From NCBI GenBank assembly GCA_040754075.1, contig JBFMDH010000036.1, positions 1 through 64,000 on the forward strand: 64,000 bases of DNA, in the 5' to 3' direction. A program made the position numbers and the translations under genes. The notes beneath the pieces were generated by a model. The model was not told where the DNA came from. It saw nothing but the letters and a program-made list of their open reading frames with translations, and did no database searches. Below, piece after piece: positions 51,702 to 64,000 of the stretch (the stretch's first letter is position 1; every line of letters begins with the position of its first letter). This stretch comes from Acidobacteriota bacterium (GTDB lineage: Bacteria > Acidobacteriota > Blastocatellia > UBA7656).

Positions 51702-51941
51702 TCACTTGCTGATGGATTTCAGTAGTTCGCGCGCATCGCGGCGGTGTTTGCGCGACACGGGCAGGCGCATTCGATTGGCGAGTTCGATGAACATCTCGCC
51801 CTGAATGGTGGTCGTTAGAGCCTGAATATGGGCGATGCAGACAAGATTATTGCGATGGAATTGTTTGAAACTTTCGGGGTCTAAGCGGTCAAGCAAACCG
51901 GCAAGCGACGAATCGCAAATCGCTTGGGTATTACCACTCAT
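51702..51941 (-). pseudogene. LytTR DNA-binding domain fragment
   Basis: About 79 residues resembling the second two thirds of a LytTR domain: SLAGLLDRLDPESFKQFHRN, the NLVCIAHIQAL strand, and MRLPVSRKHRRDARELL. The receiver domain and the first LytTR strand are missing. The frame starts at 51941, overlapping the end of the metallo-hydrolase gene by 11 bp. It is either a decayed response-regulator gene joined to the hydrolase end or a short, translationally coupled regulator. The first reading is more likely. Confidence 0.65.
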
Positions 51942-52695
51942 AGACGCGCCCGACTTCGGCGATAAATAGTCGCGGATGGTTAAGCGCGCGGAGTTGTGCA
52001 ATCACTTGCCGGTGATGGCTCGGTTTGATGTGCATTGCGTAAATCTCGGCTTCGCATTTCAGTTTCTGCAAATCCCCGGCAAGCGACTCAGGCGTGAAAT
52101 GTTTGGCAACCCGCGCCAACCCTTCGAGTTCATTCGGATACGACACATCAACGAAAATCGCTTTCAGGTTAGCGGCATCAGAAGCCACTTGCCACAGTTC
52201 ATCGGTGACATAGGTATCAGCCGAAAAAATTACCGTCGCCGTTTGGTCTTCAACCATCATGCCGCACGAAGGAACTGTGTGATTGACCGGAATCGGGGTT
52301 ACCTGTAGCCCGCCAATGTCAATGCGTTTTCGCGGCTCCAGCGTCTGGTAGCGAATCGCCCCATCGTTTGTCCCTGCCAGATGAATCTTCGTAAAATCCG
52401 GTGAAATCGCGTCGTTGAAAATGTGAGCTTGCAAACCTGTAATCACTTCTTCAATTCCATAAATCATTACAGGCGTTTCAAGATGCGTGAAGGCTTCGGC
52501 GATTAACACCGGAAGACTGGCGATGTGGTCGTTATGGGTGTGGGTAACGATGACGTGACCAATCGCCGCCATCTCTGCGGGGGTAAGCGCCACGGCAAGA
52601 CTGCCCGCATCAATGGTGACCTCGTCATTGATTAAGAAGGTGGTGAAGGTTTGCAAATTCGCATCAATGTTACTGGGCAGTAGTTTGATTTTCAT
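51931..52695 (-). CDS. Metallo-beta-lactamase-fold phosphodiesterase-like protein
   Basis: A 254-residue hydrolase with the metal motif IVTHTHNDHIASLPV, a later His in PVNHTVPSCG, and Asp in VIFSADTYVTDE; the layout resembles class II cAMP phosphodiesterases and other MBL-fold enzymes such as RNase Z. A cyclic-nucleotide role would fit with the cNMP-binding protein at 60.8 kb but is speculative. The start at 52695 is followed by MKIKLLPSN. The 3' end overlaps a LytTR fragment. Confidence 0.85.
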   Translation of the reverse strand: MKIKLLPSNIDANLQTFTTFLINDEVTIDAGSLAVALTPAEMAAIGHVIVTHTHNDHIASLPVLIAEAFTHLETPVMIYGIEEVITGLQAHIFNDAISPDFTKIHLAGTNDGAIRYQTLEPRKRIDIGGLQVTPIPVNHTVPSCGMMVEDQTATVIFSADTYVTDELWQVASDAANLKAIFVDVSYPNELEGLARVAKHFTPESLAGDLQKLKCEAEIYAMHIKPSHHRQVIAQLRALNHPRLFIAEVGRVYEW

Positions 52696-52917: not shown

Positions 52918-53145
52918 TTCAAGAGCAAGCAATATTCCTTTTCGCTTCAGCTTAAATTGTTGGTGAATAATTTTGCTATCAGCCAACAAACAAAAATCGC
53001 TTGACTCGATTTTCTAACCTTTCGCTCTGCGAAATATAATTCCGCTTTCTTGAAATCAATTGCGCACCTGACATATACTCCGCGCCGAAAAGCCGCTCAT
53101 TACACAGGTCGTTTGTGGGCTTCCCTGCAAAAAAGGAGTTTGAGT

Positions 53146-55107
53146 ATGCGAAGAGTTGTTTGCCAACGCTTGCTATTTTTCATTGCGCCGATGCTCTTCC
53201 TGTTTACCGGAAGCGCCTGGCTGCAATCAACGGCTATCCCCATCATCAAAGCTCCGGCTTGCGCTTATGACGTACGCTCAGGCACGCTTGTCCTCAAAGG
53301 CGACAATTTTCAAAGCGGCGCGGTTGTGAGTCTCAGTAGCGCCGAAGGGGCAATCAATTTCGGGCGCGTCAAAATCAAAAGCGTCAAAAAAATCGTCATC
53401 AATAATGTCTCTGCCGAAGACGCCCGCCGAGGCTTTGAGGCGCAAGTCATGGTCAATGGCGTCGCCTCAGAAGTCGTGCATTTAACCTTCGATGCGGTCG
53501 ATGAAAGCCAGCTTACCGAAAGCGATGTCAAAAAAATCATTGAACAGACGGCAGCGCAAGCCGAAGCGAGCAACCTGAAAGTCACCATCGCTGTAGCAGA
53601 CGCAGAAGGCAATGTCCTCGGGGTTTTTGAAATGGCGGGGGCAGCGGCAAACACCACCATCGGTACAGGCAAATGCGCAGGACGCGCGGGCGAGTGCGGA
53701 CTTGAAGGCGTCGTTGTGCCGTCATGCGCGGCGGCAATTTCAAAAGCCGTGACCGGGACGTTTTTAAGCAGTCAGGGTCACGCCTTTTCGACGCGCACCG
53801 CGAGTTTCATCGTGCAGGAACACTTTCCGCCCGGCGTCAATTTTCAAGCGGGGGGTCCACTTTTCGGCGTGCAGTTTTCGCAACTCGAAGTCTGTAGCGA
53901 CATCAATCCGAAAGCGCCGCTCGGACTTTCGGCAGACCCCGGCGGCATTCCGCTTTACAAAAACGGTTTGAAAGTCGGCGGTCTCGGCATCGAAGGCGAC
54001 GGCAAATACACGCTCGACCCCGACCCTACGGATAACGATGTCCCAACCGAAGAACTCATCGCCGTTGCAGGGGCGCGCGGCTATGAACCACCGGCGGCAA
54101 TCACCGGCGATAAAATTATCGTCAACGGCATTCGCTTCAAGTATGTGAATGCCGGGACGCCTGCTGCCGCTTCGCAAACTTCGTTCAATAATTTGCGCGG
54201 CACGACCGATACCGCTTGTTCGACTCTGGGGCTTGCGCCGAACGTCGTAAGGAACGCGCCGGCTTCGGAATTCATCAGCGAAACCTTGAATGGCGCGCCC
54301 GCTGGTCGTGTTAATAAACGCATTTTTCCAAATGGCGCGGCATCTTTTCGTAGTGGTTCGGCGCTCACCGTGAGCGAAGTGAATATGCTACTTGCGCAAG
54401 CCGCCGCGCAGGCGTTCAAGACCCGCGCGGCGATTCGTCAACCGGAAGGCAGCGCCGCAGAAGTCAACATCGCGGTCGTTGATACGGATGGCACTCTGCT
54501 TGGACTTTTCAGCACCGTTGATGCGCCGATGTTTGGCTTGGATGTGTGCGTGCAGAAAGCCCGCACCGCTGCTTTTTTCAGCAAAACGACTGCTGCAAGC
54601 GAACTGAGAAGCGTAGGGCTTGGCAGCTATGTTGATGCGGCATCGCGTGACGGCATTCGCCTTGATGGGTCGGTAGCATTCAGCGACCGGGGGCACGGAT
54701 TTTTGAGTCGCCCGTTTTTTCCCGATGGCATAGATGAAACCGAACACGGGCCGTTTTCGGTAGCGATTGAAGAATTCTCGCCGTTCAATGTCGGCTTGCA
54801 ACTCGATTTGATTACCCCCGCGCTGGTTAAATTTTTAACCACAGGAATGACGAGTCCGAATAACTGCACGGGGATAGCGGCGCTCAAAAACGGCATTCAA
54901 ATTTTTCCCGGCAGTGTGCCGCTTTATAAAAACGGTCGGTTGGTAGGAGCCATCGGCGTCAGCGGCGACGGCGTCGATCAGGACGATTTGATTTCTGCGA
55001 TGGGCAGCACGGGCTTTGAATCGCCAACCAGCATCCGTTGCGATACCGTGTTCGTGCGCGGCACTCGCTTACCGTTTGTGAAATTCCCGCGCAATCCGAA
55101 CCGGTGA
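53146..55107 (+). CDS. Secreted protein with two HbpS/GlcG-like domains
   Basis: A 653-residue exported protein. The ATG at 53146 has AAGGAG 7 bp upstream and begins a signal peptide (MRRVVCQRLLFFIAPMLFLF). An N-terminal beta-sandwich precedes two copies of a haem-binding HbpS/GlcG fold: ESDVKKIIEQTAAQAEASN with TIAVADAEGNVLGVF, and VNMLLAQAAAQAFKTRAAI with NIAVVDTDGTLLGLFS. Each is followed by a GVPLYKNG...GGLGIEGDG-type segment. Cysteine-rich loops (KCAGRAGECGLEG) are present. HbpS-type proteins bind haem or iron and act in oxidative stress sensing, so a periplasmic haem role is likely. It is monocistronic. Confidence 0.85.
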   Translation: MRRVVCQRLLFFIAPMLFLFTGSAWLQSTAIPIIKAPACAYDVRSGTLVLKGDNFQSGAVVSLSSAEGAINFGRVKIKSVKKIVINNVSAEDARRGFEAQVMVNGVASEVVHLTFDAVDESQLTESDVKKIIEQTAAQAEASNLKVTIAVADAEGNVLGVFEMAGAAANTTIGTGKCAGRAGECGLEGVVVPSCAAAISKAVTGTFLSSQGHAFSTRTASFIVQEHFPPGVNFQAGGPLFGVQFSQLEVCSDINPKAPLGLSADPGGIPLYKNGLKVGGLGIEGDGKYTLDPDPTDNDVPTEELIAVAGARGYEPPAAITGDKIIVNGIRFKYVNAGTPAAASQTSFNNLRGTTDTACSTLGLAPNVVRNAPASEFISETLNGAPAGRVNKRIFPNGAASFRSGSALTVSEVNMLLAQAAAQAFKTRAAIRQPEGSAAEVNIAVVDTDGTLLGLFSTVDAPMFGLDVCVQKARTAAFFSKTTAASELRSVGLGSYVDAASRDGIRLDGSVAFSDRGHGFLSRPFFPDGIDETEHGPFSVAIEEFSPFNVGLQLDLITPALVKFLTTGMTSPNNCTGIAALKNGIQIFPGSVPLYKNGRLVGAIGVSGDGVDQDDLISAMGSTGFESPTSIRCDTVFVRGTRLPFVKFPRNPNR

Positions 55108-55155: not shown

Positions 55156-55692
55156 TTAAGAAGGTTGACGAATACCCTTTCTTACATTTTCGTTCAGTTC
55201 ATCGTATGCAATCCTATTCGCTCTGATTGCATTGTGAATAATTTCTTTTACCTGTCCTGCTGTAAAGGTATAAATGTATTTCTCACTTCTGACCTGTCCT
55301 GAAATTAATTTAGCTAAATCGCATAATTTATCCATGTCCAAATCTATTAAATCGTGATGTCTTGCTTTTAGATCGTTAATTAGAGTATCACCTGATTCAG
55401 GTGATAACTTTACTTCAAGGTTAATAGCATCTAGTTCTGATTTTTCAAGTAATAAAATATTAAGTTTTGAAAGTGATGCATTTTTTGCCGTCATCAATGC
55501 TAATACAACTTCTGAAACATCTTCCCTCGTTTCTTGAGATGCCCAAACAGACAGGCCATTGCTGGTAGTCCTAATGCAATTACAAATTGCATCTGCCCAA
55601 ATACCGTTAGGTTTCAGTGGGGGAACTTCTTCCCACTTTGAACGCGCAATTTTCCTAGCAAGAAATTTCAAAGAAGAATTACTGTTTTGCAT
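55156..55692 (-). CDS. Unknown protein of the AT-rich cassette (third gene)
   Basis: Unrecognised cytoplasmic protein of 178 residues if ATG 55692 is used; a TTG at 55707 is the alternative, and neither has a well placed ribosome site. Mostly helical, with an acidic, Leu-rich central part (VVLALMTAKNASLSKLNILL) and a basic C-terminus. Base composition is clearly lower in GC than the genome around it. It is the last of three genes transcribed from 57302 leftwards. Confidence 0.65.
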   Translation of the reverse strand: MQNSNSSLKFLARKIARSKWEEVPPLKPNGIWADAICNCIRTTSNGLSVWASQETREDVSEVVLALMTAKNASLSKLNILLLEKSELDAINLEVKLSPESGDTLINDLKARHHDLIDLDMDKLCDLAKLISGQVRSEKYIYTFTAGQVKEIIHNAIRANRIAYDELNENVRKGIRQPS

Positions 55693-55764
55693 TTCCTGAT
55701 GGTCCAACGAATTGTGAGCTATCCTAATGATTTATACAAAGATTTTATTAACACTATTACCAAA

Positions 55765-56454
55765 TTATTCAAGGTCGTTTATCACACTCTGCATATAGTC
55801 TCTTAACCACGAAATATTTTCAGTTTTAACTCGATTTTTTAAAATATCTATTGCTTGATTTCCACCCCATAATTCAAGTGTGGAAACAGCCGCTTCACGA
55901 ACTTCAACAGAATCCTGAAAAAGTGCGTGAGTTGGAAGTAAACGTAATTTTTCTGTTATAAGCTTAACTGGAACTCTTCCTGCGACCTGGAGGAGATCTG
56001 CTGATAAGCCTGGATATTTTAATATTGACTCATAATAAAGATTTTCAATGGCTTCTTCGACAAATTTATTTCCAACTTCAAATTCATGCAGTAAAAAATT
56101 TTCAGCAGGATGTGTTACACCATCTTCAACAGGTTCTATTTTTAGGAGTTCACGAATTTGCATCTTCAGATTCAGTTGTTCCGGCTTGATTGGTGAACTA
56201 AAAAATCTCTCGTTTCCAAAATTATCCTTGTCGTCGAGGAAATCAATAGTAGGTTTATTATTATTTATGGATTCTAAAAAACTCGTTGAATGAGTTCTAA
56301 AGTCGAATTTCTGAATGTAAGGCATTTCCTGTTCATCGTTACCTGTGGCAGCAGAACTAACGGAAAGGTATATACCTGCAACTAAGATTGACCTTAAAAG
56401 CTTCTGATAATTAGGTCGTGAAGTAAAACTAGAATTTTCGGTTGATGTATTCAT
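55765..56454 (-). CDS. Unknown protein of the AT-rich cassette with HEAT-like end
   Basis: A 229-residue protein with an N-terminal hydrophobic segment (LLRSILVAGIYLSVSSAATG) that may be a signal peptide or anchor, and a C-terminal HEAT-like repeat (SVEVREAAVSTLELWGGNQA). AGGTGAG lies just before the ATG at 56454; a GTG nine bases upstream is less likely. It follows the 276-residue gene by 17 bp, so the two are co-transcribed. The function is unknown. Confidence 0.7.
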   Translation of the reverse strand: MNTSTENSSFTSRPNYQKLLRSILVAGIYLSVSSAATGNDEQEMPYIQKFDFRTHSTSFLESINNNKPTIDFLDDKDNFGNERFFSSPIKPEQLNLKMQIRELLKIEPVEDGVTHPAENFLLHEFEVGNKFVEEAIENLYYESILKYPGLSADLLQVAGRVPVKLITEKLRLLPTHALFQDSVEVREAAVSTLELWGGNQAIDILKNRVKTENISWLRDYMQSVINDLE

Positions 56455-56471
56455 AAAACTCACCTATAGGC

Positions 56472-57302
56472 TTATGAGATAAAATTTATTATCTCATTTA
56501 CTATTTCATCGTGCCATTGGGGTGATTCTGAGAAGTAGCTTGAAATGTCATTACTATTAAACCGCTCTTGAATATTCTTAGGATCAGTATTGATGTCTGT
56601 TTGTATTCTAATTCTATCTAAAGTTTCTCCAATTCCAGAACTTCGAGAGATATTAGCAACCTGTCTATGAATACCAGTTAATGAAATTGATCTTTCAGTT
56701 TTATTTCCAAATGTGCGTTCGGAATAAGAACCGGCTCTCCAATCCCACTCAAAAGGAAGATGCTTGGAATATAGCTGAGGAAGGTTCAAAAGTATCGAAG
56801 CAACTTTGTTCATTTCTTCCTCAGACATTTCTTTTAGAAAAAATTCTTTCACTGATGCGAGTCGGTGTGGTTGTAAATTAAAATAACCTGTAACTTCATT
56901 GATCATTTCAGAGCCAATTCGACAGAAATATGAAAACTCATCGAAATTATCGTAACTCCCATCAAAACCAAGGTAAACGAAATCAAATCTTTTACCCATT
57001 AGTAAAAGATGTATCTGCTCGTTTATAGATTTAAATGATATTCGAGAGCTATTGCCGGTCGGAGTCTGTTCCTGAATGATTGTGGGAAATAAACCATGCT
57101 TCCCATAAATTGGCGTCAATTCAGAAATTATTTTTGGGTCAGGAACTATTTGCTCAGCTTTTACAAACGCACTAGCTTGATATTTCAAAATTCTATCAAT
57201 CACAAATAAATCTCCAAAATGTTTCAATGAAGATGCAATGATATACACATCCGATAAGGACACACAAGAATTTGTAGAAACGATTGAGTTAAAAATCATC
57301 AA
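56472..57302 (-). CDS. Unknown protein of the AT-rich cassette (first gene)
   Basis: Unrecognised 276-residue protein, no membrane segments. The sequence near the end (GIHRQVANISRSSGIGETLDRIRIQTD) suggests an alpha/beta fold with a Gly-Arg rich loop, and hydrophobic strands (FDFVYLGFDGS) are followed by acidic residues, but no motif is decisive. It starts at a double ATG without a ribosome site. It lies 44 bp after the redox fusion gene stop. The AT-rich composition suggests transfer from elsewhere. Confidence 0.65.
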   Translation of the reverse strand: MMIFNSIVSTNSCVSLSDVYIIASSLKHFGDLFVIDRILKYQASAFVKAEQIVPDPKIISELTPIYGKHGLFPTIIQEQTPTGNSSRISFKSINEQIHLLLMGKRFDFVYLGFDGSYDNFDEFSYFCRIGSEMINEVTGYFNLQPHRLASVKEFFLKEMSEEEMNKVASILLNLPQLYSKHLPFEWDWRAGSYSERTFGNKTERSISLTGIHRQVANISRSSGIGETLDRIRIQTDINTDPKNIQERFNSNDISSYFSESPQWHDEIVNEIINFIS

Positions 57303-57346: not shown

Positions 57347-60300
57347 TCAACCGATTTGAATGCCGATTTTTTCTAAAAATTTCGTCGGGCGGTCGCCGCC
57401 GATTAACGCGAAAATATAATCGTTTGCCACGCGGGCTTTTTCGTTGCCTTTGCCATCCACCAACACCACCTCTTGCGGGGTAATCTCTTTAATCTGCGTG
57501 CCGAAAAAAACTTTGATGCGCCCTGCGTCAATGCAATCAAACACGTTCATCTTGTTGCCGAGTTTTAAATCGCCTTTGAAATCGCTGCGAATCACCAGCG
57601 TCACTTCGTTCGTCCGCGTAAAGCTTATCTCTCGCCCTTCGCGTTTAAAGCCGGTCAAATCCACCGCCGCTTCGATTGCCGAATTGCCTGCGCCCACCAC
57701 AATACATTTTTTGCCGACATATTCATCGGGATCGGCAAGGCGATATTTCACTTTGCTGTCAGGCTTAGGCGCTTGCGCTTTCGGGGTAAATTTTTCGCCG
57801 CACTGCACACAAAACTTCATCTTCGCGGCGCGCGCGGTTCCGCACTTATAACAGAACTTCGGCAGTGCCGCCGGCGACTCGACCGTGATTTTTATATCTT
57901 CGCCCGACACGCCGAGTTTAAGCGGCGCGCCGCGATTGCCAACTGCAATGACGACGCGACGCGCCGTGTAAGTTTGCGGTTCCTGCAAAGCGCCTTTCGC
58001 GGTCACCACCGTAAAACCACCGTTTGCGGCTTTGATGTCTTTACAGCTTTCATCTTCGTTTACTTTGACGCCGTTTTGCATCATGGCATCGAACCAACCC
58101 TTGAGCATCTCTTCTTTGCTGTCGCCTGCGCCGGGCAGCGGAATCGCGCCCTTTGCCTGCACCGAATCGGGTTTATAAAAAACGTATTTGCCCGCCGGAT
58201 ACGTTTGTTGAATCGTCGCCGCAACTTTTTCCTGTTCGATAGCGACATAGCGCAAGCCGCGTTGCCTGGCTAACACCGCCGCCGAAAGCCCGGCGGGACC
58301 AATGCCGATAATCGCCACGTCATATTCGGCGCTGGGGTTTGCCCCTTCCTTTTGCAAATCCGCGATGATGGTATCAATCACCTGCGCGCCTTCGTTGATG
58401 GCGTTTTTGATGAGCGGCACGCCCGACACATCGCCAATCAGATAGATACCATCGACATTGGTTTTATAACGACTGTCGCGCGCCGGGACTTTGCGCGGCG
58501 GAATAATTTTATTGGTGTTGATGACGATACAGGATTTCGGATTGGTCGGGCATTCCGCCTGACAGGCGGTATCTTCCATGCACTGGTCGGCAGCAACCGG
58601 AACCGCTACGCCGTTGACGATGGCGAGCACATCGTGCGGGCAGGCTTCAACGCAGGCGTGACAACCGATGCAGGTGATGGGATTGACAATCGGATAAGGG
58701 TAACGCGGGCCATCGGCTATCACTTGATTGAGGTCAATTTTGGCGGTTTGCCACCACGAATCTTTCAAGGCTTCCCAGCCGATGCCTTTATCAACCGTCT
58801 TTTCGAGTCTGCCGGTATCGCCACGCGGAATGATGGTGTTTTTCAAAATGTATTTGCGCCGCACCGTATTGGCTGCAAGCACGACCAGCGCAAGCAACGG
58901 AAACGCCAGTAACCCAACTGCCCAACCCGTCCAATTCAACGCGCCGAGTTGTGCATCGCGGTCAAATCGCAAAGCGTCTTTTTCCTGACGAATGACGCTG
59001 GCGCTGCCGATGCCTGAAAAGGCGACGAATGATTTGCGCCCGTCGTTACTCAGTTTTTCGGATTCTTCAACCGAAGCTAAAAACTTGCTCACCTCGCGTA
59101 AACTTCGCGCGCCCTCTTCAACAGCTTGTTTCGCTTGTTCAGACAAATCGCTTGCTACCGGATGTTGTTTGTGACAGGTGATGCAATTGGCAAGCGGCGT
59201 TTGCAGGCTGGCTATCGTTTCATTGGTTTCACTCGTCGCGTGACATTTCAAACAGGCTTCGCGCAGGCTGCGAATACCTTCAGCGGATTTCGCGTCGAGT
59301 TTATTGTCCTGGTGACAGACGACGCAGGCGCGGTCGTCACTGGCTTTGCCGAGATAATGAAGCAGGTGAAACTGGTCGGTTTTTAAATAACCGACTGCGG
59401 GCAGAGTTTCGAGTTTTTGCGGCGTGTAAATTTTCTGGAGTTCTTTATTTTCCCAACGCTCAAACGCCTGTTGCCAGCGCGCCGCTTGCCAGCCCGACCA
59501 TTTATATTCGACGCCGAGTTGCGGAAGTCCGACGCTTGCGCCGCCGTGCGGGACGGCGAGGAGTTCGCCTTTTCGCGCGCCGTCTTCAATGCGGTACTGA
59601 CCGTTATGGCAATTGACGCAAAGCCCATAATTCAACAGCCCCGCCTGGCTTGCGCGCCCTTGATGTTCCGTGTGACAGGCATTGCATGCCGTGACATTGG
59701 CGCGGCGGTGTCCGCTGATGAGCGCCAGCGGCAAAAAACTTTGCGCGGTTTGAACAGATACGGCAGTTGAATTCCCTGCTGTGTTATGACAGTCAATGCA
59801 TTGATTTTGCACGCCGGTGACGACGTTATGACACGCGGTGCAGGAATTGGCATTCGGGCGCAAAGCGATGCCGCGCGCGCTCAAGGTGTCGCTCGCGTGA
59901 ACCTCTGCGACCGGCGCGGGCGCAAAGGTATCGGCATGCAAAAATGCGGCGGCGAGGGCAAACAATCCGACGAGCAACGCGCCCCAGACCCAGTAAGATT
60001 TGCGCCAGAGTTTGGATAAATCGAGCGTCGGTTGCCAGTTGAATTGCGCTTTGCCCAACCGCCTCGCAACTTTCGGATGCAGCATGGTCGCTTCGATCAA
60101 TTTACCGGCTTCGCGTTTACGTTTATCCCAAAAAATTTTGATGACCTGTTCATCAATGCCTGGCGTAAAGGTTAAAAGCTTGCCGGTCAGCTTCAAGCGT
60201 TGCGTGCCACCGGGCGTGATAATCGGAGCCTTGCGTTTGGCGGGGATATTGACAATCAGTGTGGAATCCGTTTCACTGCCGCCAACCGACATCGGCATGA

Positions 60301-60673
60301 GTAATCCGGTTTGCCCGGCGATGGGATTGACTTCGATTTCGCGTTCGACGGCAATGAACAAGCCGTCATCGTTGTAATTGATTTTGAGCAGGAAGGGTCC
60401 GATTTGTACCAGATCGCCATCGGCAAGCGGCGTTCGTTCAACCAACTCTCCGTTAAGCAAGGTGCCGTTTGCCGCCGAAAGATTATAAATCCAGAAATCT
60501 TTGCCGATTTGATTGATGCCGGCGTGAACCCTTGAAACCGAGCGATGATTGAGCGCCAGATCGTTTTTGATGCTGCGCCCGATGGAGAGTCCTTCTCTAT
60601 CCATCACCACATCATCAATGGCGCTTACGCCATCTTTTCTTTTAATGATGTAACGGCTCAGTGCTCCGGTCAT
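57347..60673 (-). CDS. FHA - heptahaem cytochrome c - ferredoxin - flavin reductase fusion
   Basis: A 1108-residue fusion. Residues about 8-105 form an FHA phosphopeptide-binding domain (LSIGRSIKNDLALNHRSVSRVH). A membrane helix (about 228-248) is followed by seven CxxCH haem sites (CTACH, CIDCH, CNACH, CVNCH, CVVCH, CLKCH, CITCH; about 271-505), a second helix (about 574-598), two [4Fe-4S] motifs (CIGCHACVEACP and CQAECPTNPKSC, about 664-715), then an FAD/NAD(P) reductase (IIGIGPAGLSAA near 784, VVGAGNSAIEAA near 990) with a zinc-ribbon CYKCG...CVQCG inserted near 945. Topology implies FHA and reductase in the cytoplasm and haems in the periplasm. The start has no ribosome site; a hairpin lies just upstream. 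It would move electrons across the membrane in one polypeptide. Confidence 0.9.
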   Translation of the reverse strand: MTGALSRYIIKRKDGVSAIDDVVMDREGLSIGRSIKNDLALNHRSVSRVHAGINQIGKDFWIYNLSAANGTLLNGELVERTPLADGDLVQIGPFLLKINYNDDGLFIAVEREIEVNPIAGQTGLLMPMSVGGSETDSTLIVNIPAKRKAPIITPGGTQRLKLTGKLLTFTPGIDEQVIKIFWDKRKREAGKLIEATMLHPKVARRLGKAQFNWQPTLDLSKLWRKSYWVWGALLVGLFALAAAFLHADTFAPAPVAEVHASDTLSARGIALRPNANSCTACHNVVTGVQNQCIDCHNTAGNSTAVSVQTAQSFLPLALISGHRRANVTACNACHTEHQGRASQAGLLNYGLCVNCHNGQYRIEDGARKGELLAVPHGGASVGLPQLGVEYKWSGWQAARWQQAFERWENKELQKIYTPQKLETLPAVGYLKTDQFHLLHYLGKASDDRACVVCHQDNKLDAKSAEGIRSLREACLKCHATSETNETIASLQTPLANCITCHKQHPVASDLSEQAKQAVEEGARSLREVSKFLASVEESEKLSNDGRKSFVAFSGIGSASVIRQEKDALRFDRDAQLGALNWTGWAVGLLAFPLLALVVLAANTVRRKYILKNTIIPRGDTGRLEKTVDKGIGWEALKDSWWQTAKIDLNQVIADGPRYPYPIVNPITCIGCHACVEACPHDVLAIVNGVAVPVAADQCMEDTACQAECPTNPKSCIVINTNKIIPPRKVPARDSRYKTNVDGIYLIGDVSGVPLIKNAINEGAQVIDTIIADLQKEGANPSAEYDVAIIGIGPAGLSAAVLARQRGLRYVAIEQEKVAATIQQTYPAGKYVFYKPDSVQAKGAIPLPGAGDSKEEMLKGWFDAMMQNGVKVNEDESCKDIKAANGGFTVVTAKGALQEPQTYTARRVVIAVGNRGAPLKLGVSGEDIKITVESPAALPKFCYKCGTARAAKMKFCVQCGEKFTPKAQAPKPDSKVKYRLADPDEYVGKKCIVVGAGNSAIEAAVDLTGFKREGREISFTRTNEVTLVIRSDFKGDLKLGNKMNVFDCIDAGRIKVFFGTQIKEITPQEVVLVDGKGNEKARVANDYIFALIGGDRPTKFLEKIGIQIG

Positions 60674-60688
60674 AACATTCTGTCAGGT

Positions 60689-60807
60689 GATAGGATTCAG
60701 GGCTAAAAAAACAATGAAAGCGGAATACTGACGATGAACAAATCTATAACACTTTCTGTTCATCGTTCATCGTTCCTACTTCATACTTTCTTTTCCTGAA
60801 TCCTATC
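60689..60807. repeat. Nested hairpin between the two redox genes
   Basis: Outer arms GATAGGATTCAGG (60689-60701) and CCTGAATCCTATC (60795-60807) enclose a 10-bp inner stem ACGATGAACA/TGTTCATCGT (60731-60740, 60757-60766), both built of 7-bp words (GTTCATC, GTTCATC, GTTCCTA). The right outer arm contains the stop codon of the 818-residue gene and the left arm begins 15 bp upstream of the next start codon. Confidence 0.85.
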
Positions 60808-63259
60808 TTGCCAAATAAAACACCACTTGAAAAATGTGCACCAGCATCAACGCCAGCATCAGTGAAGTGAACAACACATGCGGCGGCAGCCAGAGTTTCA
60901 ACAAGCGATGCAGATAAATCAACGCATCGACGCGGCGCAAAGTAGCAGCGGCTTCGATGGCGCGCGTGAGTTCGCGGCTTTCATCGGGCGCAAGTTGCGC
61001 GGCAACCGCTTGATAATCGGCTTTTGCCGCGTCGAGCATATCTTCAAGCCGTTCGCGTTTGAGATATTGTCGCAACAAAAAGCTAATCGAAATAAATCGC
61101 GGCACCACTTTGTGAGCCGCAATGTAACGCACGGCTTCGGATGGCGAGCCTGCAACTTTGCCAATCTCGCGTCTGAGTTCTTCGCGACGGGTTTTCAAAT
61201 CATCGATGAGCAGCGGCGAGCCTTCGATTTTGGTGAGCAGGCGCGGCGCCACTGCGTAACAGAAGATACCAAATATTCCTGTGGCAATCACCGCATCAAA
61301 TGACCACATCAACAGCGTCGTCAGCCACCCGCCGGAATCATTCCCGCCGTGTATGAGTAACATCAACCCGGCAATCACGCCTGCATAAGCATGGACGAGT
61401 AACCAGTAACGCAGCGCCCCGCGCCGCCTGGTGTAGACCTGACGCCTGAACGCATAGCCCATCACCCAGACGATGCCCGCAAGTCCCACAAGCCCGGTTA
61501 TCCAGCGCATATTCAGAGTGCCGAAGATGCTGCCGCCAAGACCGAATTGTTTTAACCCGAACCACGTCGCGATAAGGAGCGCGGCGGTCAAGCCGATGCC
61601 GCCCACATGCAACAATCGTTTGAGTGGGTCGGATTTATGAATGTTGCGACCGATGGCATGGGTTTCGTCTATGCGGAACAAGCCTTCGATTTGCCCGACT
61701 TCATTGAAATACTGGCTCGGCGTAATGCGCGCCAGCGCCCCCGTCGGACAGTTCTCTTCACAACTGTATTTCGCTTTCTGATTTTTCGCAGGATTAAGGG
61801 TTGTGCCGGTGCACAGGTTGCATTTGACAGCGACTAAATCTTCGGTGGCATCAACCGCCGCAGGCAAGGGGTCGGGTTGCAGCCTGAGTAAATCTTTAAT
61901 GCGCCAGGCAAAATTTTTATTTGTGTCCGGCGTTGCGCGTTTGCGCGGCACCATCGAAATCGCATCATAAGGGCACTGGGTGGCGCAATCGCCGCAACCG
62001 ATACAAAGCTTAGGTTCAATATCGACCTGCCCCTGCTCGAACCGTCCGATGGCTCCGGTCGGGCATCCGGTTAAACATTCCGGGTCGGCGCAGTGCATGC
62101 AGACTTCCGGCGACAACACGCTTTGTCGCGCGCCAAGTTTCGCCGCTGACAATCTGATGATGTGAATGCCGCGTCGGGTGAGGCGCGACTGACCATGAAT
62201 CTGGTGACAGGCGAGCGAACAGTTGCCGCAACGCACGCACAAATCCATATCCATCACCAGCAGGTTATTGGCATCGACGAGACCTGTAGTGATGACTTCC
62301 TGTTGCGCCATCAGAATGCGTCTGCCGAGTGTGACATTGGTTACATCTTTACCGGGAATAATTCGCGAACCGATTTGTGGAGGGTGAAACCGCGCAAATA
62401 GTTTTTCGAGATTATCTTGAATCTCGGCGGTCTGGCGCAATTTATTGATGGATATTTCCAGAACCTCTGCGCGTGACATGAGTTCCGCCGTGTACTGCCA
62501 TTGCTGATTTTGCGAAAGACCTTCGAGTCCGAAAAAATAACCTTTGCCGAGATAATCTTCGACCACCTGCGGCTGGTCGTTCATCATGAAATCATAACGG
62601 CGTTTCATCCACCCTTGCTTGATGATGTAGAGGCGATTGATGGTTTCGCCTTGCCGAAAGAGCGTATGATTTTTACTGAAGATTCTAAATGTCGAAATTT
62701 TTTTAAGCGCGTCGATGGTTTCAATGCTCACCCCCGTCAGCAAGCGCAAATCTTCAAGCAGGGTGCGCCGTCCGTGACGACGATAATTTCTGTCGAGGTC
62801 GTCGCTGAAATTCGTGAGTTTGCGAAGCAATCGCAGAGCCGGGCGTTGAATCTCTAATATCTTCGTGTTTTGGTCGGGCGCAACAATCATCGTGGCGTTA
62901 TGCGGGGTGCCCGCCAGCACCGCCATTTCGCCAAAAATTGCGCCGCGTTGAAGTTCAGCAACCTTGACGCGCTCACCGTTCGGCGCATTGACGAAGACCG
63001 CGATGAGTCCATTCACTACGACATAAAATGTATTGCCGCCCCACGCGCCTTCTTCAATAACGGTTTCGCCCGGACGGTAACTCAGAAGCCGCAAATAAGG
63101 TCCAACTTTTTTGCCGCGATAATTGCGCCCGTAAACCGAAACTTCCAAGTCGAGTTCAAAATCGAAATGACCGTCATGAGTGGAAAGCAGAGCCGAAAGC
63201 GCAGGCAACGAACGGATGGCGTCGAGAACTTCGCGGCGGCTCTTATGTTCTTGCGGCAT
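60803..63259 (-). CDS. cNMP-binding - ferredoxin - membrane cytochrome fusion
   Basis: An 818-residue fusion. Two cyclic-nucleotide-binding (CAP/Crp-like) domains lie at about 45-140 (VAELQRGAIFGEMAVLAGTP) and 190-285. Four Cys clusters follow: CVRCGNCSLACH near 338, CMHCADPECLTGCP near 386, CIGCGDCATQCP near 418, and CNLC...CEENCP near 478-502. Five membrane helices end the protein; His in LLVHAYAG, LLIHGG and MLVHIFQ could ligate haem b. A Gly residue replaces part of the cNMP phosphate-binding Arg region only partly, so binding is uncertain. The gene is between the multihaem gene and the FHA fusion in one transcript. It seems to couple cytoplasmic ligand or redox sensing to quinone or cytochrome electron transfer. 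Confidence 0.88.
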   Translation of the reverse strand: MPQEHKSRREVLDAIRSLPALSALLSTHDGHFDFELDLEVSVYGRNYRGKKVGPYLRLLSYRPGETVIEEGAWGGNTFYVVVNGLIAVFVNAPNGERVKVAELQRGAIFGEMAVLAGTPHNATMIVAPDQNTKILEIQRPALRLLRKLTNFSDDLDRNYRRHGRRTLLEDLRLLTGVSIETIDALKKISTFRIFSKNHTLFRQGETINRLYIIKQGWMKRRYDFMMNDQPQVVEDYLGKGYFFGLEGLSQNQQWQYTAELMSRAEVLEISINKLRQTAEIQDNLEKLFARFHPPQIGSRIIPGKDVTNVTLGRRILMAQQEVITTGLVDANNLLVMDMDLCVRCGNCSLACHQIHGQSRLTRRGIHIIRLSAAKLGARQSVLSPEVCMHCADPECLTGCPTGAIGRFEQGQVDIEPKLCIGCGDCATQCPYDAISMVPRKRATPDTNKNFAWRIKDLLRLQPDPLPAAVDATEDLVAVKCNLCTGTTLNPAKNQKAKYSCEENCPTGALARITPSQYFNEVGQIEGLFRIDETHAIGRNIHKSDPLKRLLHVGGIGLTAALLIATWFGLKQFGLGGSIFGTLNMRWITGLVGLAGIVWVMGYAFRRQVYTRRRGALRYWLLVHAYAGVIAGLMLLIHGGNDSGGWLTTLLMWSFDAVIATGIFGIFCYAVAPRLLTKIEGSPLLIDDLKTRREELRREIGKVAGSPSEAVRYIAAHKVVPRFISISFLLRQYLKRERLEDMLDAAKADYQAVAAQLAPDESRELTRAIEAAATLRRVDALIYLHRLLKLWLPPHVLFTSLMLALMLVHIFQVVFYLAR

Positions 63260-63330
63260 AGGAGGAGACCTTGATTAAGCTTGTATTACGAACTCACCTC
63301 AATCGCAGTTAGTTTAACGGTAAATCTTTT

Positions 63331-63460
63331 TAACACGAAGCACACGAAACACACGAAGGGTAAAAATTTTGTTATGCGCAAAGATAAATCATTCCGGTTG
63401 GGTCAGGTAATCAAAAATTGCGTTAATTGGTTTCGTGTTCTTTGTGTTCTTCGTGTAAAA
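63331..63460. repeat. Inverted array with 9-bp units upstream of the cNMP fusion
   Basis: Left arm (63331-63358) consists of ACACGAANN 9-bp repeats. The right arm (63430-63459) is an imperfect reverse complement built of TTCGTGTTC units. It fills the gap between the multihaem gene stop (63509) and the next gene (63259), the same layout as the heptamer hairpins but with a 9-bp period. Confidence 0.8.
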
Positions 63461-63508
63461 AACCGCCCCCCCATCGAGCAGCTTGATGAGGGCATCATCT
63501 TTTCATTA

Positions 63509-64000
63509 TTAAAACGGAATGGCGCTGCGATGACATTTCGAGCAGACCGCTTCGCGTTTGGGCGCGTGACACGTCCAGCACGCCGAACGGTGACGCTGCC
63601 CGCGCGCCGTGTTGATTTGTTGAACATCAAGACGCGCTTCTTCCTGCGGTTCGCCTAACCGGTGACAGCGTTCACAACCCGATTTCAGATGCGACGGGCT
63701 GTGTCGGAAATTGAAACTCGCGGCGCTCCCCATTCCCGGACTGTAAATGATGGCTTCGCTCTTTTGCACGTGACAGACGCCGCAACCGCCGAGTTTTTCG
63801 CCCGCCTGATGGGTGTGACACTGGTAACATTCGGCGTGTCGCGGAAAAGTCGCGCGCGTCGGATTGCTCTTCACGTTATGACAATTACCGCAACTCACCT
63901 CTGCGCCTTCGCCGCTCATCTTCTGCGCGTCCATGTGAGTTTTATGCGAAAAGCCTTTGAGTCCGCCGCGTGTGCCGAACTCCTGGTTGCGCGTTGGGTA
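63509..64000 (-). CDS. Multihaem cytochrome c, partial (continues beyond the window)
   Basis: The reading frame is open to the right edge, so the N-terminus is outside the window. The visible 163 residues carry six haem-binding CxxCH sites (CGNCH, CYQCH, CGVCH, CERCH, CWTCH, CSKCH) with distal His residues (TFPRHAECYQ, FRHSPSHLKS) for bis-His ligation, as in cytochrome c7/c3-type proteins. It should be periplasmic. It is the most upstream visible gene of the redox transcript with the cNMP and FHA fusions. An ATG at 63934 lies inside the frame and is not the real start, since coding sequence of the same character precedes it. Confidence 0.88.
   Translation of the reverse strand, partial: YPTRNQEFGTRGGLKGFSHKTHMDAQKMSGEGAEVSCGNCHNVKSNPTRATFPRHAECYQCHTHQAGEKLGGCGVCHVQKSEAIIYSPGMGSAASFNFRHSPSHLKSGCERCHRLGEPQEEARLDVQQINTARGQRHRSACWTCHAPKREAVCSKCHRSAIPF

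Follow-up and report, generated by a model that had tools for sequence, protein, structure and literature searches.

The occurrence of signal-reading domains within the same polypeptides as chains of haems and iron-sulphur clusters raises the question of whether electron flow across a cell envelope can be placed under the direct control of a cellular signal. Such proteins are encoded at the end of a 64,000-nucleotide stretch of DNA (the window) from an Acidobacteriota bacterium of the class Blastocatellia (UBA7656; assembly GCA_040754075.1, contig JBFMDH010000036.1, positions 1 to 64,000), whose genome measures 7.58 Mb. A sequence-only reading had described three adjacent co-directional genes, for a partial multihaem cytochrome and two giant fusion proteins, and had proposed that phosphorylation and a cyclic nucleotide, read by FHA and cyclic-nucleotide-binding (CNB) domains, switch electron flow across the inner membrane. 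All three open reading frames are in place on the minus strand and Pfam confirms their domains. They belong, however, to a set of seven co-directional minus-strand genes (G1 to G7) of which the window holds only the 3′ end, so the outer-membrane half had been missed. The best overall explanation, to which we assign a probability of about 0.55, is that the set encodes a trans-envelope electron conduit under the control of its sensor domains. The conduit part of this explanation is strong.

Redox architecture of the seven-gene cluster

The contig continues beyond the window to position 73971, and four co-directional genes (G4, G3, G2 and G1) lie upstream of G5 (L009:7744-15763). In the 5′ to 3′ direction the order is G1 (tetrahaem-barrel), G2 (decahaem/LVIVD), G3 (tetrahaem), G4 (octahaem), G5 (nonahaem), G6 and G7, with small gaps between G1 and G5. 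Residue ranges and coordinates are collected in Table 1.

The core of the proposed conduit is the pair G6 and G7. G6 matches Pfam cNMP_binding (2.6e-32, over two stretches) and several Fer4 families, and ends in a membrane domain. Its 16 cluster cysteines and the four membrane histidines H623, H637, H794 and H808 are invariant in 39 orthologues, and the equivalents of the histidines are also invariant in 19 sequences from across the phylum that share 18-61% identity with the window protein. The charge pattern, read by the positive-inside rule, places the N-terminus in the cytoplasm and one histidine pair near each membrane face; the two pairs may thus hold a two-haem wire that spans the membrane. 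A sequence search found no solved structural relative of this domain, and its Pfam matches are weak (Ni_hydr_CYTB and Ferric_reduct; best E value about 1e-3, in other members). In a structure search with the whole G6 model the match lists were dominated by CNB domains; the Fe-S and haem regions are poorly modelled without their cofactors.

G7 matches FHA (8e-15), Fer4_10 (4e-6) and Pyr_redox_3 (8e-30) and carries seven haem-binding CxxCH motifs, at residues 278, 292, 330, 352, 450, 474 and 497; an eighth, at residue 668, is part of the ferredoxin and not a haem site. The predicted topology leaves the FHA domain inside, the seven c haems outside, and the ferredoxin and flavin reductase inside. 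In structure comparison the reductase fold is nearest to YpdA and to ferredoxin-NADP+ reductases of the thioredoxin reductase (TrxR) type, with Z scores of 18-21 over about 250-264 residues (best Z 20.6, root-mean-square deviation 4.8, 264 residues). It differs from these in being fused to a ferredoxin, membrane helices, haems and an FHA domain, and in having its FAD tail segment ahead of the core. In homologous flavoproteins of other acidobacterial classes this segment stands behind the core, and we therefore regard the G7 reductase as circularly permuted. A plain thioredoxin reductase was rejected in view of the fused ferredoxin and the permuted segment order. The reductase also contains an inserted stretch resembling a double zinc ribbon (residues 939-965).

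The remaining genes would form the outer half. The cytochrome first described as partial, G5, is 339 amino acids long when read as a whole gene, with nine CxxCH motifs and a lipobox-like start. G4 (333 amino acids) is octahaem and G3 (152 amino acids) tetrahaem; G2 (1323 amino acids) combines nine CxxCH and one CX4CH motif with LVIVD repeats; and G1 (786 amino acids) joins a tetrahaem domain with four CxxCH motifs to a long region without a Pfam match, a putative outer-membrane barrel. Each of G1 to G5 has a single hydrophobic N-terminal segment, as expected for exported proteins.

From these features a route can be proposed. G6 and G7 would form an inner-membrane redox complex in which NAD(P)H exchanges electrons in the cytoplasm with the FAD of G7, then with its 2[4Fe-4S] ferredoxin and the four clusters of G6; the two b haems of G6, stacked across the membrane, would pass electrons to the periplasmic heptahaem stretch of G7. 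As G7 has both ends of this route and no membrane cofactor, and G6 would supply the wire, the two proteins would be expected always to occur together. In the window's family the periplasm would be bridged by the nona-, octa- and tetrahaem cytochromes and the outer membrane crossed by the tetrahaem-barrel and decahaem-LVIVD proteins. Most probably, G6 and G7 carry NAD(P)H-linked electrons over the inner membrane and the cytochromes carry them on to the surface, with either direction possible; the cluster appears to connect the NAD(P)H pool with the cell exterior across both membranes. We consider the topology, the route and complex formation likely, with good confidence. The cytoplasmic N-terminal domains, namely the tandem CNB of G6 and the FHA of G7, would set whether the complex assembles or conducts, the input to CNB1 being a cyclic nucleotide (probably cAMP) and that to FHA a threonine-phosphorylated partner or subunit.

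Distribution and reshuffling of the modules

Relatives of G6 (E < 1e-100) occur in 34 of 58 sampled Blastocatellia genomes, the source genome included, and G7 matches (E < 1e-60) in 32 of them. Across 20 neighbourhoods and 73 further named loci, an FHA-heptahaem protein follows G6 wherever the contig is long enough, with few exceptions, and the ferredoxin-reductase part is fused to it, encoded by the next gene, or not seen. The G6-G7 pair is conserved across Blastocatellia. This breadth, together with the recurrence of the pair or its split form wherever a contig continues, shows that the genes are real, far beyond chance. The full set of seven was seen in the window's family and in one genome of another family; Pyrinomonadaceae-type genomes combine the pair with divergent octa-, nona- and tetrahaem genes, and Chloracidobacterium-type genomes carry it without local multihaem genes. 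Three insertions or neighbours are recorded here in passing. Between the two parts of split G7 genes, one lineage has a PIG-L deacetylase gene (L044:3780-4706) and another a ClpX-like AAA gene (L047:13889-15031); in a further family of the class, genes for an FHA-GAF-SpoIIE phosphatase and a TPR-GGDEF protein stand upstream of G6 (L057:5643-10125).

A profile search that covered 396 genomes of the phylum turned up CNB-FeS relatives in other Acidobacteriota classes, where the modules are repartitioned into a reductase-CNB-CNB-FeS protein (about 790 amino acids), a separate bis-haem b protein (about 275 amino acids) and an FHA-decahaem protein, some with a second FHA domain. These loci further carry genes for HbpS-like, G1-type barrel and G2-type decahaem proteins. 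In Planctomycetota the profile search gave a CNB-FeS match (E < 1e-20) in 47 of 199 genomes, and some loci (L153, L165) have 17-haem, bis-haem b, CNB-CNB-FeS and FHA-15-haem genes in a row. Weak cytochrome b matches appeared in further genomes. A strict peptide-pattern scan of contigs gave no full-length match outside Blastocatellia, which is not evidence of absence, given the distant relatives that the profile searches found. The joining of signal-reading domains to an electron conduit, as first described from the window, is thus kept in two phyla even where genes are split and domains reshuffled. Under many layouts, and within one neighbourhood, CNB remains attached to the Fe-S protein and FHA to the multihaem protein; we therefore take both to be functional parts and not accidents of fusion.

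The distribution also bears on direction. Electrons from a donor outside the cell could enter through the outer-membrane cytochromes and be used by the complex to reduce NAD(P)+, as happens when electrons are taken up in lithotrophy or syntrophy. No part of the system fixes direction, and in some loci of other classes a NuoEF-like NADH module replaces the flavin reductase; in two (L143, L146) the gene adjoining CNB-FeS encodes a fusion of a 2Fe-2S thioredoxin-like and a 51K FMN part, which suggests an exchangeable NADH input module. The operon, however, lacks a donor-specific enzyme, and Chloracidobacterium-type genomes keep G6 and G7 without local outer-membrane cytochromes. We consider inward flow somewhat unlikely.

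Sensor domains and predicted messenger genes

If the conduit is controlled by ligands, the sensor domains should retain their binding residues. Glu111 of the CNB1 cassette is present in 97% of 77 relatives and Arg120 in 99%, where the mean identity per column is 47%; CNB2 of those same proteins has neither Glu nor Arg and is degenerate in the whole class. Of the sequence evidence that a cyclic nucleotide is bound, this contrast within one protein is the strongest. Other classes have canonical cassettes, often in both CNBs, and structure matches relate the tandem to PKA/PKG regulatory subunits. The FHA domain of the window retains the conserved residues of the phosphopeptide site (GR / SR.H / NGT), which in 63 relatives are kept at 79% (Arg), 98% (Ser), 83% (His) and 83% (Asn).

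A second line of evidence is the position of genes whose predicted products would synthesize and degrade the messenger. In two genera (genomes G004 and G003) G7 is immediately followed, on its own strand, by a class-II-phosphodiesterase-like gene (PF02112, above cut-off); 12-27 bases beyond it comes a gene for an FHA-GAF-class III nucleotide cyclase. Inspection of the cyclase sequence by eye shows both metal-Asp motifs, together with the Lys and Asp residues that an adenylate cyclase would have. Among seven genomes tested the phosphodiesterase-like gene was present in six and the cyclase in all seven, each in single copy at the thresholds used; in G007 the two are paired on a contig other than that of the conduit. 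The phosphodiesterase-like gene lies less than 5 kb from G7 in four genera, with the cyclase directly next to it in two, at distances that include 2.8 kb in G001 and 4.7 kb in the window. The chance of a single-copy gene falling within 5 kb of G7 is about 1 in 700 at this genome size. The product of the window gene matches PF02112 at 44.6 bits (gathering score 23.7), and its orthologues adjoin the cyclase in three relatives; the predicted phosphodiesterase assignment rests on this match and this pairing. The source genome encodes two class III cyclases and about 38 Ser/Thr kinases. Its own FHA-GAF-class III cyclase gene (L167:5592-7214) stands beside mutL-like and NADH dehydrogenase subunit genes.

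The 4.7 kb between G7 and the phosphodiesterase-like gene of the window hold an HbpS-like gene, a type that recurs close to the system in about 30 loci and that other classes have inside the equivalent operons. Between this gene and G7, three minus-strand open reading frames (55156-57302) have 34-36% GC, against 51-55% in the flanks, and match only PHROG families of uncharacterised function (one at 7e-28). This stretch is likely a recent insertion that separated G7 from the phosphodiesterase-like gene.

Cassette conservation and linkage to messenger genes give the gating idea better support than was available to the sequence-only reading, and ligand control in the family has, in our estimate, about an even chance of being correct. 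We still infer gating rather than observe it, and several points weigh against it or against the conduit as drawn. The window's own CNB1 has His120 in place of Arg, a change shared by one other locus only (L080), so that cAMP binding by this domain is doubtful and control by cAMP in the source genome is correspondingly less probable than ligand control in the family. Phosphothreonine control is not universal, as FHA residues are lost in some families: Chloracidobacterium-type copies have Ser for Arg (GR to GS), and Pyrinomonadaceae-type copies lose His or Gly and keep the site only in part. The cyclase orthologue of the source genome (50-52% identity, full length) is on another contig and not beside the operon. 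In NCBIfam the window's phosphodiesterase-like product scores 38.6 for RNase Z and 35.1 for cyclic-nucleotide phosphodiesterase, both far below cut-off, and as the four genera share ancestry their linkage counts as one retained linkage and not as four events. The G1 barrel is putative, as its strand periodicity is weak (17 of 500 shuffles reach the same level). The whole explanation draws on sequence, gene order, conservation and predicted structure.

Several of these points would also fit a constitutive NAD(P)H-coupled conduit whose CNB and FHA domains serve only as scaffolds for assembly or localization: the redox parts are invariant while CNB2 has decayed in the class, and Arg is lost from the window's CNB1 and from some FHA domains. 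The near-complete retention of Glu and Arg in CNB1, the canonical cassettes of other classes and the linkage to phosphodiesterase and cyclase make this unlikely. At least in the source genome, His120 would be accommodated by a ligand other than cAMP, for example cCMP/cUMP, a nucleoside or a different anion; nucleoside-binding trypanosome PKA regulatory subunits with altered cassettes are among the fold matches (6hyq, 6h4g), and CNB1 is weakly similar to Pycsar effectors. We consider this improbable in view of the standard cassette kept in relatives and of the linked cyclase, which to the eye looks purine-specific. The Pycsar similarity is too weak for a defence system, which was rejected. Finally, the complex could be a redox sensor: electron load on the haems and clusters would alter CNB and FHA, and these would recruit kinases or the cyclase, or let them go, and so report external redox state. 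This would suit the attachment of these domains to electron carriers on the cytoplasmic side, the FHA-GAF-cyclase gene nearby and, in another family, the nearby gene for an FHA-GAF-SpoIIE phosphatase. It is very improbable, since a sensor would hardly need a complete NAD(P)H reductase and haems by the dozen, and since the CNB1 cassette looks like a ligand receptor.

Direct switching of conductance by a cyclic nucleotide at the tandem CNB and by threonine phosphorylation at FHA, in a modular system of Acidobacteriota and Planctomycetota that has its own cyclase and phosphodiesterase in some lineages, is put forward as a tentative proposal, at somewhat less than even odds.

Table 1. Positions of the proposed conduit genes, their domains and two neighbouring genes in the window
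Feature	Position	Strand	Remarks
G7, 1108 amino acids	57347..60673	−	FHA, transmembrane helix, heptahaem, transmembrane helix, 2[4Fe-4S] ferredoxin, TrxR-type flavin reductase
FHA domain of G7, residues 30-92	60398..60586	−	phosphothreonine-site residues R33, S47, H50, N69 present
Heptahaem stretch of G7, residues 278-501	59171..59842	−	predicted periplasmic, between helices 225-247 and 581-612
2[4Fe-4S] ferredoxin of G7, residues 661-711	58541..58693	−	
Flavin reductase of G7	57353..58477	−	FAD tail segment (~730-770) before Rossmann core (784-1107)
G6, 818 amino acids	60803..63259	−	CNB1, CNB2, four [4Fe-4S], bis-haem b membrane domain
CNB1 of G6, residues 59-143	62831..63085	−	
CNB1 cassette of G6, residues 109-123	62891-62935	−	His120 (codon CAT) replacing near-universal Arg
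CNB2 of G6, residues ~190-284	62408..62692	−	cassette degenerate across class
Four [4Fe-4S] clusters of G6, residues 334-515	61715..62260	−	NrfC/DmsB/HycB type
Membrane domain of G6, residues 545-817	60809..61627	−	five helices; H623/H637 and H794/H808 predicted ligands of two b haems
G5, nonahaem lipoprotein-like cytochrome, 339 amino acids	63509..64000, continuing past the window to contig ~64528	−	
HbpS-like double-domain protein gene	53050..55107	+	
Metallo-beta-lactamase-fold protein gene	51931..52695	−	class II cyclic-nucleotide phosphodiesterase-like

Relation to known systems

The sequence-only reading knew of no characterised system with this set, and searches of curated models and of open-licence papers likewise returned no named complex or family and no paper for the domain combination. 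Among the closest known systems are the Geobacter Ext clusters, of which the selenite/tellurite cluster (extHIJKLMNOPQS) comprises a barrel, multihaem cytochromes, a Rieske protein and a cytochrome b (PMC5877670; for ext conduits see PMC6148476). The plan is similar, with a barrel (putative here), several multihaem cytochromes, a b-type cytochrome and an Fe-S protein, and the cytochrome part of G2 matches NCBIfam ExtM (5e-28). Membership was rejected on the scores, which are 98 bits for ExtM (cut-off 800) and 33 and 34 for ExtN and ExtO (cut-off 200). The inner-membrane modules also differ: that of Ext is a bc-like Rieske/cytochrome b without CNB, FHA or flavin reductase, and that of the present cluster, in whose core domain searches found no Rieske match, consists of CNB-4×[4Fe-4S]-bis-haem b and FHA-heptahaem-ferredoxin-reductase proteins.

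The Tmc, Hmc and Dsr(MKJOP) complexes of sulphate reducers share a cytoplasmic Fe-S subunit, a membrane cytochrome b and a periplasmic multihaem protein. Here, however, no heterodisulfide-reductase-like or NrfD-like subunit was seen, CNB, FHA and an NAD(P)H module are added, and membership was rejected (DsrO 61 bits against 200, HmcB 36 against 420, TmcA 27-30 against 114, HmcA 29-35 against 400). The cluster recalls Mtr and Pcc in concept, through its putative barrel in the outer membrane and multihaem cytochromes on either side, but it has no recognised MtrA/B/C set, the putative barrel and the tetrahaem domain form one polypeptide, and the surface-type protein is a decahaem-LVIVD protein. 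The likeness of G6 to PKA/PKG regulatory subunits, in its tandem CNB and in the canonical first cassette of its relatives, ends with the fusion to Fe-S clusters and a membrane cytochrome and with the degenerate second cassette of the class. By analogy, the set would combine the working of a trans-membrane redox complex of the Tmc/Hmc type with that of an outer conduit of the Ext/Pcc type.

Studies of how extracellular electron transfer is controlled usually look to transcription; to our knowledge control of an electron conduit at the level of a ligand has not been described. Here two classic signal readers lie within redox proteins. In two phyla they remain together despite fission and permutation, and two genera have the conduit next to genes whose predicted products would make and remove the messenger, which offers a directly testable switch. 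The cluster is likely an unrecognised route of NAD(P)H-linked electron exchange in mostly uncultured bacteria of soil and wastewater.

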